The translations under genes were made by a program, and so were the position numbers. The notes below the pieces were generated by a model. It was not told where the DNA came from. It made no database searches and saw only the letters and a list, made by a program, of their open reading frames with translations. From the NCBI GenBank assembly GCA_030431975.1, contig JAUIHP010000004.1, positions 62,001-126,000 of the forward strand: 64,000 bases of DNA, given 5' to 3'. This document shows, piece by piece, positions 1 to 64,000 of this stretch (the first letter of the stretch is position 1; each line of letters begins with the position of its first letter). Source of the DNA: a bacterium. GTDB taxonomy: Bacteria > Eisenbacteria > RBG-16-71-46 > CAIMUX01.

Positions 1-154
1 CGGTCGCTTCGTGGTCGGGTGTGGTTCGCGATCGACGACGGCCCCGGCCGACCGTCGCGTTGGCTGACTCTTCGCGCGATGCGGGTGATGGCATGGTGGA
101 CCTCGAAACCACTACGATAGGAGGGACTCGTAGACCCGCCCGAAGGAGGAACCG

Positions 155-4487: not shown

Positions 4488-4585
4488 AGCCGTATCTCCC
4501 TTTCCCCAGGTTTCGGCACCTACGGAACCGAGCTGGAGGAGCGGCCGCCGTTGATTGACGGGATTCCGACACGGCAATTTTTTCC

Positions 4586-4657
4586 CGACGTGCCGACGTG
4601 CCGACGTGCCGACGTGCCGACGTGCCGACGTGCCGACGTGCCGACGTGCCGATGTGC
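4586..4657. repeat. 8-bp tandem array, nine copies
   Basis: The unit CGACGTGC is repeated nine times; the last copy carries one substitution (CGATGTGC). The unit length is not a multiple of three, so any frame through it is broken into a 24-base amino-acid repeat. It lies in the divergent gap between the HDOD gene and queC and is not part of either domain. Confidence 0.95.
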
Positions 4658-4782
4658 CGACGGCCCGACTGTGCGGCTCCGACGGTCCGACTGTGGGGCT
4701 CCGACGGCGCGACTCGCGCGCGGGGGGCTTCGGGCGAGCGGTTCTCGATTCCCGGCGTCGGGTGCTCTACAATCCTACGATT

Positions 4783-50920: not shown

Positions 50921-52447
50921 ATGCGTCCCGATTTGATCCAGAACCGGATCGACAAGGCCGAACGCCTTCGCGAAATGGGAGTCAATCCCTACCCCTACCG
51001 GTTCGAACGCACGCACCAGGTTTCGGAGGTGCTGGCAAACTTCGATGAGGAAGAGGCGAAAGAAGATTCGTCCTCTGTCGCCGTAGCCGGTCGCATCGTT
51101 TCGTTGCGTCTGATGGGTAAGGCGGCGTTCGCGCATGTTCAGGATGCGTCGGGGAAGATCCAGCTTTACATCAAACGGGACGATGTCGGGACGGAATCGT
51201 ACAAGGCGTTCAAGTTGCTCGATCTCGGGGACCTGTTGGGAGTCCGTGGTACGCGCATACGTACCCGGACCGGTGAGGCGTCGATCGCCGTGACCGAACT
51301 CGAAGTCCTGAGCAAGGCCATCCGTCCTCTTCCCGTCGTCAAAGAGAAAGAAGGCGAGGTCTTCGACGCGTGGAAAGACACCGGAGCGCGCTACCGGCGG
51401 CGCTATCTCGACCTCATTCTCAATCCCGATTCGCGTGAAGCCTTCCGGAAGCGGAGTGCTGTCGTCCGCGCGCTGCGCGACTACCTTGATGAACGTGATT
51501 TCGTCGAGGTCGAGACGCCGGTGTTGCAGGCGATCTACGGGGGCGCTATGGCGCGTCCCTTCGAGACGTATCACAATGCGCTGGACATGCCGTTCTTCAT
51601 GCGGATCGCACTCGAACTTCCGTTGAAGAGGCTCCTGGTCGGAGGTTTCGATCGCGTCTATGAACTCGGCCGCGTCTTCCGGAACGAGGGCGTCGATCGC
51701 TCACACAATCCCGAGTTCACGATGCTCGAGTTCTACTGGGCCTACGCGGACTACCACGACGCGATGGATCTGGTCGAGGACCTCTGCCGCACCGTCGTGA
51801 AGACGGTGACGGGAGGAATGACGGTCGAATGGGATGGCAAGACCATCGACTTTGAACCGGCCTTTCCCCGGGTTCGGATGGTCGATCTCATCGCGGAGAA
51901 GACCGGTCTCGACGTGCTGAAGGACCCAGAGGAGAAACTGCGTTCGAAGCTGGGCGAAGCCCCGGACTTCGCGACGCGGGGCCACCTTATCGAAGAACTC
52001 TTCGACCAGTATGTGCAGGGCGATCTGGTGCAGCCGACGTTCGTCATGGATCACCCGTTGGCTATCTCGCCGTTGGCCAAGGTCAACCGGCACGAGCCGG
52101 AGTTACTCGTCGAGCGCTTCGAGATCTTCATCGGTGGAATTGAGTTTGGAAACGCGTTCTCGGAACTCAACGACCCCGTCGATCAAAGGCGACGTTTCGA
52201 GGAGCAGGCCGCGCAGCGTGAGCGGGGCAATGACGAGGCGCAGGTTCTGGACGAGGACTATCTCGAAGCCATGGAGTACGGAATGCCTCCGGCAGCCGGG
52301 GTCGGATTGGGTGTGGACCGTTTGGCCATGCTCGTGGCCGGGACGCATGCTTTGCGCGATGTTCTGCTCTTTCCGCACATGCGGCCGGAGGAAGGACGCG
52401 GTGCAGAGGACGAGGTAGCCGACACCGACACCGACACGGGGCACTGA
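50921..52447 (+). CDS. lysS: Lysyl-tRNA synthetase, class II
   Basis: A 508-residue enzyme that charges tRNA-Lys. The N-terminal OB-fold (about 55-145, [21 protein letters not shown]) binds the anticodon, and the class II core follows with motif 1 ([12 protein letters not shown]), motif 2 ([21 protein letters not shown]) and motif 3 ([12 protein letters not shown]). ATG 50921 follows GAGAGGA. The last codons and the stop lie in a repeat region: the stop TGA is in the first copy of a 13-bp array, so the C-terminal residues (TDTDTGH) are array-derived. Confidence 0.97.
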
Positions 52448-52500
52448 TACGGGGCACTGATACGGGGCACTGATACGGGGCACTGATACGGGGCACCGAG
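52436..52500. repeat. 13-bp tandem array, five copies
   Basis: The unit ACGGGGCACTGAT is repeated from 52436; four copies are perfect and the fifth ends in CACCGAG. The lysS stop codon lies in the first copy. Confidence 0.95.
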
Positions 52501-55963: not shown

Positions 55964-56075
55964 CAACTTCGAACCTCGAAACCTCGAAACCTCGAAACCT
56001 CGAAACCTCGAAACCTCGAATCTTCGAAGACTCGAACTCCGAAACTTCGAACCCCGAAACTTCGAACTTCGAAAC
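55964..56075. repeat. 8-bp array and degenerate TTCGAA repeats between dnaK and grpE
   Basis: ACCTCGAA is repeated six times perfectly (55973-56020). Degenerate TTCGAA-containing copies lie on both sides. The array fills most of the 250-base gap and shows no reading frame. Confidence 0.93.
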
Positions 56076-56138
56076 CACGGGCCGTCGTGTCTCCGTTGGG
56101 GATGCGACGTTTTCGTAACAGGACGAGAGAGAGACGTC

Positions 56139-58345: not shown

Positions 58346-58431
58346 AGCGGTTAGAACGGCCTAGAACGGCGAATCACAACGGAATGTTGGTCATGGGAGT
58401 GCCTGGCCTCTTCGAGGGGCCGGGTTCTTTC

Positions 58432-58551
58432 GTTGGGCTCGGCTGGGTTCTCTTATCGGGGCTAAGCCGGGCTCTTTTGTTGGGGCTCAACTGGGTTCTC
58501 TCGCTCGGGGCTACGTCGAGTTCTTTCGTCGGCGCTCAACTGGCACGTCTT
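58432..58551. repeat. 24-bp degenerate tandem repeat, five copies
   Basis: Five units of 23-25 bases begin GGGTTCT or similar and end in a GGCTC/GGCTA core. The array covers the gap after the NtrC-like gene and the last 30 codons of the Fur-family gene, so that protein tail is repeat-encoded. Confidence 0.75.
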
Positions 58552-60192: not shown

Positions 60193-61632
60193 ATGAGAAC
60201 CATCGAGTATCAGGCCGCCGAGGTTGCAACGCAGACCCGACGTCGGTTGTCGGGTTGGCGGCTTCATCAGGTACTGTCGTCTTCGGTCATTCTCTTTGCT
60301 GCCATCTTCCTGGCGATCTTGCCGGAAGCGGCTCTTGCCAACGATCCGCCGATCATTCGGATCGGTATCGACACTCCGCTGGACAAGGTCACGATCAGTT
60401 CCGAATCCGACTGGTACATCGGCATCGACAACAGCGGAAAGGTTCCCGTCCGCGTCCCCGCTGGGCGGACTTGGAGTCTCCAAGCTCTCGGTGACTCAGA
60501 AATCGGTATCGAGGACGGTGATTTCCGCAAGCGCATCGACGAGACCCTGTACGTCTTTGTCTTACCCGCACGCGATGGCTCCTCGTCCGGCGATGCCGGG
60601 GCCGGGCGTGACGGACTTTCCGGTCGAGAGGTCGGTCGCGATTCCTACCGAGACGCAGGTCGAGAGTCGTCGGGTTCGCGCGGTGCCAGCTGGCGCGATG
60701 ATGCGACCCTGAAGGTGGGTTCGACTTCCTATCGCGGCGAACTCAAGATCTGGGCCCGTGACGGCAAGCTTTACGTGATCAACTACATCGACCTCGAATC
60801 CTATCTGCTGGGTGTCGTCCCGCTGGAGATCGGGGGGCAGTCGGCGGAGCGGTACGAAGCGATCAAGGCGCAAACCGTCGCAGCGCGAAGCTACACGCTG
60901 TCGATGTTGGGCCGTTGGGAACGCGAAGGCTACGACCTCAAGAGCACGGTCGAAGACCAGGCCTACGGCGGGTTCGATGCCGAGAACGAGCGCTGCACGG
61001 CGGCGGTTTCCGAGACGGAAGGCGTTGTCGCCGTCTGGAATTCGCAGCCCATTCGCGCCTACTACTCCTCGACCAGCGGCGGTCACACTGCGAGCCCGAG
61101 CGAAGTTTGGGAACGCGAGGACTATCCGTACTTACGTGCCGTTCGCAACAAGACCTCGAAGGTCGATGACTCCTTTTGTTCGATATCACCGTTCTACAAG
61201 TGGGAAGAGCTTTGGACGATCGATGAATTCGAGGCGATGATCGACCGCCAGCTGCCTCGCCAGGTTCCAAGTTGGAGTCGGAAGGAGTACGGCGCCTTCC
61301 GTGACATCGAGATCGTTTCCCGCAGCGAGTCGAAGCGTGTTGCCGACCTCGCGCTGCACTTCGAACGCGGAAGCGTCCATCTGCACGGCGACAAAATACG
61401 ATGGGCCGTACGACGTCCCGACGGCGGCGGGCTGCGCAGCACTCTGCTCGAGCGCGTCGGCGTTCTCAATCAGGGTGGTCGACCCACCCAGATCAAAGTT
61501 CGCGGCCGCGGCTACGGGCACGGCGTCGGGCTCTGCCAGTACGGTGCCATGCGCATGTCCGAGGTCGGCTACGACTACTCCCAGATCCTGCGCTTCTACT
61601 ACCGCGGGACCGAGCTGCGTCGGTACTACTAA
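60193..61632 (+). CDS. SpoIID/LytB-domain peptidoglycan lytic protein
   Basis: A 479-residue protein with an N-terminal membrane or signal segment (about 27-50). The SpoIID domain occupies about 180-475: ESYLLGVVPLEIGG (with the catalytic glutamate), EAIKAQTVAARSYTL, YYSSTSGGHTASPSEVW and the C-terminal GRGYGHGVGLCQYGA. SpoIID enzymes are lytic transglycosylases acting on stripped glycan strands; outside spore formers such proteins are presumed wall-remodelling enzymes. A Gly/Ser/Arg-rich linker (about 130-160) is poorly ordered. ATG 60193 follows AAGGGA. It joins the M23 and AmiC proteins as a third wall enzyme in the window. Confidence 0.88.
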   Translation: MRTIEYQAAEVATQTRRRLSGWRLHQVLSSSVILFAAIFLAILPEAALANDPPIIRIGIDTPLDKVTISSESDWYIGIDNSGKVPVRVPAGRTWSLQALGDSEIGIEDGDFRKRIDETLYVFVLPARDGSSSGDAGAGRDGLSGREVGRDSYRDAGRESSGSRGASWRDDATLKVGSTSYRGELKIWARDGKLYVINYIDLESYLLGVVPLEIGGQSAERYEAIKAQTVAARSYTLSMLGRWEREGYDLKSTVEDQAYGGFDAENERCTAAVSETEGVVAVWNSQPIRAYYSSTSGGHTASPSEVWEREDYPYLRAVRNKTSKVDDSFCSISPFYKWEELWTIDEFEAMIDRQLPRQVPSWSRKEYGAFRDIEIVSRSESKRVADLALHFERGSVHLHGDKIRWAVRRPDGGGLRSTLLERVGVLNQGGRPTQIKVRGRGYGHGVGLCQYGAMRMSEVGYDYSQILRFYYRGTELRRYY

Positions 61633-61648
61633 GCCGGCGTCGGCCCTA

Positions 61649-61666
61649 CTGGCCTCCCTAGGCCAG
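61649..61666 (+). terminator. Weak terminator-like hairpin after the SpoIID gene
   Basis: CTGGCCT and AGGCCAG form a 7-bp stem with the loop CCCT, 17 bases past the stop codon. Only a short T-containing stretch follows, so termination is uncertain. Confidence 0.35.
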
Positions 61667-61690
61667 GTTGACGTTTCCGGATCCCCAACC

Positions 61691-61725
61691 CAACCCTGCC
61701 CAACCCTGCCCAACCCTGCCCAACC
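61691..61725. repeat. 10-bp tandem repeat
   Basis: CAACCCTGCC is repeated three times perfectly from 61691 with a partial copy on each side, just upstream of the 61-bp array. Confidence 0.9.
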
Positions 61726-61780
61726 CAGCCGATAGCCGAGTTGCTGCACAGGTCCAGCGGGGGCGGATTACCGTTCTTTT

Positions 61781-62349
61781 GCACCCGCAGCGGGTGTGGT
61801 TCGCAGCATAGGCCCGGCGCGGGTGAGGTTATCGCGCATTCGTACCCGCAGCGGGTGTGGCTCGCAGCATAAGCACGGCTTGGGTGAGGTTATCACGCGT
61901 TTGCACCCGCAGCGGGTGTGGTCCGCAGCATAGGCCCGGCGTGGGTGGGGTTATCGTGCATTTGCACCCGCAGCGGGTGTGGTTCGCAGCATAAGCCCGG
62001 CATTGGTGGGATTATCGCGCATTTGCACCCGCAGCGGGTGCGGTCCGCAGCATAAGCAGGGCGTACGTGAGGTTATCGTGCATTTGCACCCGCAGCGGGT
62101 GTGGTTCGCAGCATAAGCCCGGCATTGGTGGGATTATCGCGCATTTGCACCCGCAGCGGGTGTGGTCCGCAGCATAAGCCCGGCGTGGGTGAGGTTATCG
62201 CGCATTTGCACCCGCAGCGGGTGTGGTTCGCAGCATAAGTACGGCGTGGGTGGGATTATCGCGCATTCGTACCCGCAGCGGGTGTGGTTCGCAGCATAAG
62301 CACGGCTTGGGTGAGGTTATCGCGCGTTTGCACCCGCAGCGGGTGTGGG
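61781..62349. repeat. 61-bp tandem array, nine copies plus 20 bases
   Basis: Units start at 61781 and every 61 bases up to 62330. Each begins with GCACCCGCAGCGGGTG or GTACCCGCAGCGGGTG. CACCCG-CAG-CGGGTG is a 15-bp inverted repeat, slightly broken in the GT units. The strings ACCCGCAGCGGGTG and CGCAGCATA are invariant in the nine full units; bases about 32-50 of the unit vary most. Units 4 and 6 are identical over 61 bases, and units 2 and 9 differ at two. The unit length is not a multiple of three, so the array is non-coding. Confidence 0.95.
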
Positions 62350-62524
62350 CTGGCCTGGTCATTTGCCTTGGTGGGGCCGTTGTCCCGCGGGGCCACAAGT
62401 CGTGGCACGAGCGCGCTGAGATGAATCCTCGGACCTAGCGTCTTTGGGTGGCACCGTATAAAGTGCCAAGCGGGGCAGGGAGCGCCCCGGCGCGCCAGAT
62501 CGACAGCAGGCCGATAACGGCAAC

Positions 62525-62656
62525 ACTGCCAAGACCGGCGGACCGGCAAGTCGTAGGGCCGGCAGGACGGCAGATGGCAAGGTCGGCAGGACAGCCCGGG
62601 ACCGGCGAGGTCGGCAGGCCGGCAAGACCGGCAGGCTGTCAAGGCACCGGCAACGG
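62525..62656. repeat. GC-rich short repeats of GGYCGGCAR type
   Basis: About ten irregular copies of a GGCCGGCAAG/GGTCGGCAGG/GACCGGCAGG motif lie between the 61-bp array and the GH3 gene. The cores are the same as in the repeat inside the subtilase N-terminus at 48 kb. No gene is supported between 61633 and 62733. Confidence 0.7.
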
Positions 62657-62733
62657 TCCTGGCGACGCACACGGGCGCTCCGATCGCAGCGAGACACGAC
62701 CGCAGTGGACAACCCGCTAGGAGAGCATCCGAC

Positions 62734-64000
62734 GTGAGCCCTGACAGCTACCACTCCCGCAGCGGACCCTCTCCATGGGTCCTTGGATTCCACGGACGTT
62801 CCATCCCGGCTCCCGTCGCCGCGGCGATCCAGGAACGTCGGGTCGGCGGACTTTGTCTGTTCCGCGACAACTTCGGTGACAGTGTCGAAGAGTGCCTGGC
62901 GCTCCGCGAAGAAATCCTCTCGCTGGTTCCGTCGGGGACACCGTTCCTGTTGATGGCGGACGAGGAAGGCGGGCTGATCCATCCGACCGCAGGAATGACC
63001 TCGGCACTTGGCGATCGCTGGCCCGCGTTGCCGTCGCCGCGTGCGTTGGGGCGTCTGGGAAAGACTGCCGACGCGCGCTGGGTTGGGCAGCTGATCGGCG
63101 AACGGCTGCGGCAGCTGGGAGTCCATGTCGATCTCGCTCCGTGTCTGGACCTCGATACCGAGCTTTCCAATCCGATCATCGCGAGCCGCTCCTTCGGAAG
63201 TGAGCCGCAACGTGCGGCGGACCTGAGTTGGGCGTTCACGAAAGGCCTTCAGTCGACGAAGACGGTGGGTTGCCTGAAACACTACCCGGGCCACGGGGGC
63301 ACCAAGACCGACAGTCACAAGGTTCTGCCGAAGACCGACCCGGCGTCGCGCCGGATGCACGAGGACGCGTTTCTGCACTGTCTTGGAAGCGTGACCTCCG
63401 AGTGGCCGTGGATCATGACGGCGCACATCGACTGGGGAGACGAGATGCCGGCGTCCCTGAGTCGTGCGGTCATCGGACGCCTGACGCGTCGCTTCCCGGA
63501 TCCGCTCGTCATCACCGACTCGCTCGACATGGCTGCGGTGTCACTGGAGGACGGCGCTGCGCAGGAGGCTCTGCTTGCGCACAACGACGTGCTGCTGGTG
63601 GCGCGGGACTGGAACGCGGGTCTCCGTTCGATGCATCTGCTCGAGGAGAAGATCGAGTCCGTTCCGTCGGTTCTGGCCGCGCTGGTTCGGTCGCGAAGTC
63701 GGATCCGTGAGACCTGGGAGTCACTGGCCCGTCGTCGTCGGGGCATGGGAGCCAATCCCGCTACGGCTTCGGAAGGCGACAAGGCGACGCCGGAGGTGAT
63801 CGCAGAGCGCAACGAGCGCCTGGCCGCGTTGCACCGCCGCGCCGTCCTGCTGAAGGGTGACCCAGCCCAGCTGCCGCGAGGTAAGTACGTTTGGGTTCTG
63901 CCACGAGGACTGGAGCCCTACTTCGATCTCTCCGGCTGGACGCCGCCCTCGACCCGCAGTCGCAGCTGCGAAGAGGTCGCCTGGCTACCGGAGAAGCCCG
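62734..64000 (+). CDS. nagZ: Beta-N-acetylhexosaminidase, GH3 (NagZ-like), partial at window end
   Basis: A GH3 glycosidase, open to the window edge (422 complete codons). Conserved regions are FLLMADEEGG, VDLAPCLDLD, KHYPGHGGTKTDSH (with the His-Asp pair of NagZ) and ITDSLDM (with the nucleophile aspartate). NagZ removes N-acetylglucosamine from muropeptides in wall recycling. A Gly/Ala/Glu/Arg-rich segment after about 330 leads to a further C-terminal domain that is cut off, so the protein is longer than the roughly 340-residue cytoplasmic NagZ. GTG 62734 follows TAGGAGAG. No signal peptide is evident. Confidence 0.88.
   Translation, partial: MSPDSYHSRSGPSPWVLGFHGRSIPAPVAAAIQERRVGGLCLFRDNFGDSVEECLALREEILSLVPSGTPFLLMADEEGGLIHPTAGMTSALGDRWPALPSPRALGRLGKTADARWVGQLIGERLRQLGVHVDLAPCLDLDTELSNPIIASRSFGSEPQRAADLSWAFTKGLQSTKTVGCLKHYPGHGGTKTDSHKVLPKTDPASRRMHEDAFLHCLGSVTSEWPWIMTAHIDWGDEMPASLSRAVIGRLTRRFPDPLVITDSLDMAAVSLEDGAAQEALLAHNDVLLVARDWNAGLRSMHLLEEKIESVPSVLAALVRSRSRIRETWESLARRRRGMGANPATASEGDKATPEVIAERNERLAALHRRAVLLKGDPAQLPRGKYVWVLPRGLEPYFDLSGWTPPSTRSRSCEEVAWLPEKP

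Follow-up and report, generated by a model that had tools for sequence, protein, structure and literature searches.

An intergenic family of 60-61-bp tandem repeats with two conserved motifs at a fixed distance

A gap between a gene for a SpoIID-domain protein and a glycoside hydrolase family 3 (GH3) gene carries an array of direct repeats, and the question raised by this locus is what holds part of each unit constant while the remainder changes. The array is the strongest tandem repeat of the window, by which we mean the whole stretch of 64,000 nucleotides that was analysed (TRF; period 61, 9.4 copies, score 876, 87% match over whole units; Table 1). A sequence-only reading of this DNA had described nine full 61-bp copies, and we recover all nine (unit starts at 61778, 61839, 61900, 61961, 62022, 62083, 62144, 62205 and 62266) along with a partial tenth, every one with an intact palindrome. 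Since the terminal partial unit consists of motif A and its 5' flank, the array begins and finishes on motif A. The same reading was right that units 4 and 6 are identical and that units 2 and 9 nearly are (2 of 61 bases differ in the unit listing), and right about the extent of the gap, from the SpoIID stop to the GH3 start, and about both gene names, which Pfam upholds. With at most one mismatch allowed, the ACCCGCNGCGGGT core is found at 11 sites in the window, 10 of them inside the array, against an expectation of 0.47.

Table 1. Positions in the window of the array, its motifs and the flanking genes.
Feature	Position	Strand	Evidence
Tandem array, period 61 bp, nine full units and a partial tenth	61778-62348	+	TRF, unit listing
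Terminal partial unit TTTGCACCCGCAGCGGGTGTGG, motif A and its 5' flank	62327-62348	+	Unit listing, flank comparison
Motif A of unit 1, ACCCGCAGCGGGT, 5-3-5 palindrome, recurring every 61 bp to 62332-62344	61783-61795		Pattern count; arms kept in all arrays
Motif B of unit 1, GCATAGG...TTATCG, ATAA...TTAT dyad, recurring every 61 bp	61806-61834	+	Unit listing, array comparison, fixed internal spacing
Expanded SpoIID-GH3 intergenic gap, 1.1 kb	61633-62733		Comparison with G001, G002 and G003 (about 0.13 kb there)
SpoIID-domain protein gene, flank	60193-61632	+	Pfam PF08486
Glycoside hydrolase family 3 (GH3) gene, flank, runs off the window	62734-63999	+	Pfam PF00933

Just 5' of the array, within the expanded gap, are four copies of a 10-bp repeat, CCCAACCCTG (window positions 61689-61730), and 3' of the array is a repetitive stretch rich in CCGGCAGG and CGGCAAG (62500-62640). 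The downstream half of the gap (62349-62733) has no second copy in the genome, so the gap as a whole is not one element. Unrelated tandem repeats elsewhere in the window lie at 58419-58543 (units of 49/24 bp), 52429-52496 (13), 4585-4674 (8) and 55972-56076 (8).

The sequence-only reading had proposed a search for further arrays of the unit in the genome. In the genome searched (G000; 6.19 Mb, 59 contigs, 97% complete) there are eight array stretches and one solo copy, and the related arrays are found at C41:88376, C41:62499, C21:1-554 with C22:1-198, C5:224511, C13:46163 and C3:46436. The C21 and C22 pieces stand at contig ends and their end units are identical, so the assembly has probably broken a single array in two; the totals are then seven arrays, a solo copy at C5:404112 in the order B-A, and about 53 complete units. 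Arrays may be collapsed or split in this assembly, and gene calls near some of them are mechanical. All 56 matches of a profile search of the genome fall within arrays, and the exact palindrome pattern matches 51 sites genome-wide when read forwards and 0 in a backward-read control. In a tandem-repeat survey of 864 kb, centred on the contigs carrying family arrays, all five family arrays reported by TRF rank among the top six scores. The genome is rich in tandem repeats, which make up about 1.8% of the 864 kb sampled.

Arrays differ from one another at 24-35% of positions, with the pair C5a and C3 as an exception (11.5%), whereas the units inside one array diverge by 9-16%. As C5a and C3 almost duplicate each other, there are closer to six independent arrays. 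For 50 of the 53 units the nearest neighbour lies in the unit's own array, which agrees with the block duplication that the sequence-only reading saw in units 4 and 6 and in units 2 and 9. This pattern of similarity is one of local block amplification after dispersal. Directly 5' of the C5a and C3 arrays (L013, L015) is a C-rich run followed by gctctc, the sole flank shared among arrays, which may reflect a common insertion context or common descent.

The genes next to the arrays are unrelated, and include those for an AI-2E transporter and CvpA, lysylphosphatidylglycerol synthase, a SpoIIE response regulator, an S41 peptidase, a beta-CASP nuclease, topoisomerase VI A, a trypsin-like protease and arginine deiminase. 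Given these unrelated neighbours, and given that several arrays lie between convergent genes, the arrays are not promoter sites of one regulon.

Comparison across arrays reveals two conserved motifs. Motif A is ACCCG-N3-CGGGT, motif B is GCATAAG-N16-TTATCG with an ATAA...TTAT dyad (consensus GCATAAGTNCG-N5-[CG]GTGNGNTTATCG), and the remainder of the unit is array-specific. Among the seven array consensuses 30 of the 61 columns are invariant, as against a mean of 18.3 and a maximum of 28 in 20,000 simulations with the same number of changes, an expectation that is approximate because the simulation assumes a star tree and arrays of one recent ancestor share sequence by descent. The invariant columns cluster in blocks, which are ACCCGC..CGGGT in A, and GCATAAG..CG and GTG...TTATCG in B. 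Variation within arrays provides partly independent support for constraint on the motifs, as the palindrome arms have 0.6 variant states per column and B has 1.0, compared with 2.67 for the palindrome's three central bases and 3.27 for the remaining columns. The constraint that had been read from the palindrome is real for its arms, where it is seen across seven arrays. Within the array of the window, ACCCGCAGCGGGTG and CGCAGCATA are identical in all nine full copies, in keeping with the invariant core first reported, but the palindrome's three central bases are fixed in this array only, and genome-wide their variability comes close to that of the linker.

The conserved features that go beyond those listed by the sequence-only reading are the second block, TTATCG, and the spacing. 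The distance from CATAAG to TTATCG is 22 in 55 of 55 cases, and in 50 of 50 the following palindrome lies at a distance of 15 from TTATCG, in a search that used a distance window (20-24 for B) from which rarer, larger indels would escape. The linker from the palindrome to the next CATAAG, at 23, 24 or 25, is the sole part of variable length. With the B-to-A spacing fixed and the A-to-B linker variable, the rigid module is B followed by A, about 51 bp long (GCATAAG-N16-TTATCG-N9-ACCCG-N3-CGGGT), in which the spacings place the dyad axes of B and A 30 bp apart; the period of the family is 60-61 bp.

Two dyads at a fixed distance with free sequence between them are what would be expected from a DNA-binding protein. 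We propose, with a probability of roughly 0.5, that the arrays form a lineage-specific intergenic repeat family with a rigid double-dyad B-A module that is most likely recognised by a DNA-binding protein and has been copied head to tail. A putative protein, probably dimeric, would recognise the module, and a seed copy, for example one like the solo B-A copy, would land between genes, possibly assisted by a recombinase or transposase. Unequal recombination or replication slippage would then copy the seed head to tail in blocks, and persistent binding would preserve the motifs and leave the linker to drift array by array. However, a hairpin at the DNA level, recognised in single-stranded form, would give the same conserved arms.

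The arrays might instead be a neutral or selfish minisatellite resembling STAR elements or MIRU loci, in which the motifs are alike because of a recent single seed and slippage, with no bound factor and no function. This is unlikely, but it has to be taken seriously, as the family is lineage-specific, intergenic, absent from relatives and without shared neighbours, its units are homogenised per array, and unrelated tandem repeats abound in the genome. Recent descent, however, predicts an even spread of differences, whereas here half of the columns do not change and indels fall mostly in a single linker.

A bound protein or a structured RNA had both been offered as the cause of the constraint, and of the two the protein fits better. 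If the units were transcribed, they could form two hairpins that act on the mRNA 3' ends of neighbouring genes: palindrome A could close a triloop with a 5-bp hairpin stem, a two-hairpin fold is obtained for some units, and the arrays are often downstream of genes, like transcribed REPs (PMC3733652). Nevertheless, RNAalifold returns only the short A hairpin, with a covariation term of almost nil. In the two-hairpin structure 86.2% of cells are paired and the covariation score is 0.134; shuffles give 86.6% and 0.139. Folding of single sequences gives z-scores from -2.66 (a C21 unit, with two hairpins) to +1.13, and two of the seven sequences tested fold worse than shuffles. As covariation is no better than in shuffled sequences, a structured RNA is unsupported. 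An Rfam scan has no match at the array, its sole match in the window being a tRNA; a tRNA scan finds nothing at the array, and near it there is no promoter-like site and no terminator beyond chance. A known RNA family is rejected for lack of an Rfam match and of covariation supporting helices, and we regard an element acting at the RNA level as improbable.

REP/BIME sequences are small palindromes associated with RAYT transposases, and are mostly intergenic and often between convergent genes (PMC3733652). The present family too consists of small palindromes, is intergenic and has several arrays between convergent genes, but unlike REP/BIME it has few loci, direct rather than alternating orientation, no tag and no Y1 transposase. 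The Y1 (REP-type, RAYT) transposase of the GTAG class, PF01797, is absent from the 97%-complete genome, whereas control genomes are positive. GTAG/CTAC is present in 6 of 53 units and CGTC/GACG likewise in 6 of 53, so neither GTAG nor CGTC is a common tag. With neither transposase nor tags, a REP/RAYT origin is rejected. More broadly, B and A could be hairpins or core sites in a non-autonomous mobile repeat, either REP/BIME-like or a recombinase site, served by a transposase or tyrosine recombinase encoded elsewhere. The two dyads per unit, alternating 30-31 bp apart, bear some resemblance to mosaic REP elements, B is laid out as an inverted ATAA/TTAT pair, the locations are new in this lineage, and the genome has three tyrosine recombinase genes. 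Against this, besides the missing transposase and tags, the array flanks have no common ends or target duplications other than the gctctc of C5a and C3, and we judge such a mobile repeat to have little probability.

The distribution of the family points to arrival within this lineage at some sites. In three related genomes (G001, G002 and G003) the SpoIID and GH3 neighbours are about 0.13 kb apart without an array, so the array is not needed by this gene pair in general. In a second case, convergent AI-2E transporter and CvpA genes flank the C41b array in a gap of 0.86 kb, whereas in G001 and G003 the two are adjacent, with reading frames overlapping by about 30-40 bp, and without an array. 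In this genome the two gaps measure 1.1 and 0.86 kb, against little or nothing in relatives, so two of the seven arrays arose in this lineage by insertion or expansion. According to the sequence-only reading, its case would fail if in related genomes the array were missing at orthologous sites with no consequence or the core varied as freely as the rest; the array is indeed missing at the orthologous site, but the core in this genome varies less than the rest.

A profile search of 117 other genomes (of the same family as the source, G001 and G002 only) finds nothing convincing, with one marginal match in a relative (G042; 17.8 bits). Scanning GTDB220 with the B pattern gives five single matches and no arrays, the B pattern is absent from IMG/VR, and neither phages nor plasmids match the array sequence. 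In 284 kb sampled from G001 and 230 kb from G005 there is no dispersed 60-bp family. GC skew near the arrays is weak and has no clear link with array direction.

The regular repeat-spacer look and the period of about 61 bp recall CRISPR, but the "spacers" are near-identical between the units of an array and a CRISPR is rejected; arrays of this sort are classed as false CRISPRs (PMC5294841). A closer parallel is offered by the STAR elements of Staphylococcus, which have a 14-bp core, recurring spacers of at least 40 bp, and copy expansion and contraction between strains (PMC3532100), and whose signature is T[GAT]TGTTG[GT]GGCCC[CA] (PMC3532100, PMC5294841). Like STAR, the family is made of intergenic direct repeats at several loci per genome, with a short GC-rich core, a spacer of about 40-50 bp that is locus-specific, and locations that differ between species. 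Unlike STAR, the family core ACCCGCNGCGGGT is palindromic and of different sequence, the spacer holds a second conserved motif at a fixed distance, and the period is a strict 60-61 bp with up to nine or more units. As the STAR signature is lacking and the architecture is alike, the family is STAR-like and not a STAR. In the MIRU-VNTR loci of mycobacteria, as here, interspersed tandem units stand in intergenic gaps; to our knowledge the sequences are unrelated. MIRU-VNTR are minisatellites at interspersed loci, where whole units are gained or lost (PMC3635867). Since the family fits neither REP/BIME nor CRISPR nor a known RNA, and resembles STAR in architecture only, we class it as a new family and, by architecture, as an intergenic tandem repeat of the known STAR/MIRU kind, set apart by the second conserved motif at a fixed distance.

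As to what the arrays do, a neutral or selfish repeat and a chromosomal-site function for the host are equally likely. A specific version of the latter is a site system in which a dedicated protein would bind the dyads 30 bp apart, spread over or bridge the approximately seven loci and help to organise or segregate the chromosome, with the number of units setting the strength of a site; such sites would be like matS or parS in use and unrelated in sequence, and we consider this a very slim prospect. Spread as about 53 units over seven arrays within one genome, the family is a clean natural case that separates motifs, spacing and drift. What is held constant is two dyads and their distance, so that a minisatellite without a name becomes a DNA site open to testing. 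The family also parallels, independently, the STAR elements, themselves obscure in origin and role.

A diverged branch has the same palindrome and a different flank (CGGAATCTGCACCCGCNGCGGGT; CGGAATCTGCACCCGC), with three units at C33:249433-249577 (L020 1434-1578) and a period of 62-63 bp. These units align with the main type over A and the CATA-GTC part of B, and their second motif has diverged. The C33-type flank is also present singly at C47:199060 and C3:40655, and to the right of the palindrome at C5:383886 and at the solo copy C5:404112. The C5 array is adjoined by the topoisomerase VI subunit A gene (L013 4485-5633, minus strand); type IIB topoisomerases are uncommon in bacteria. Finally, 5' of the arginine deiminase gene an open frame contains an extended simple repeat that codes for consecutive GF dipeptides (about 1-140 of L016, C5:401500-407000).
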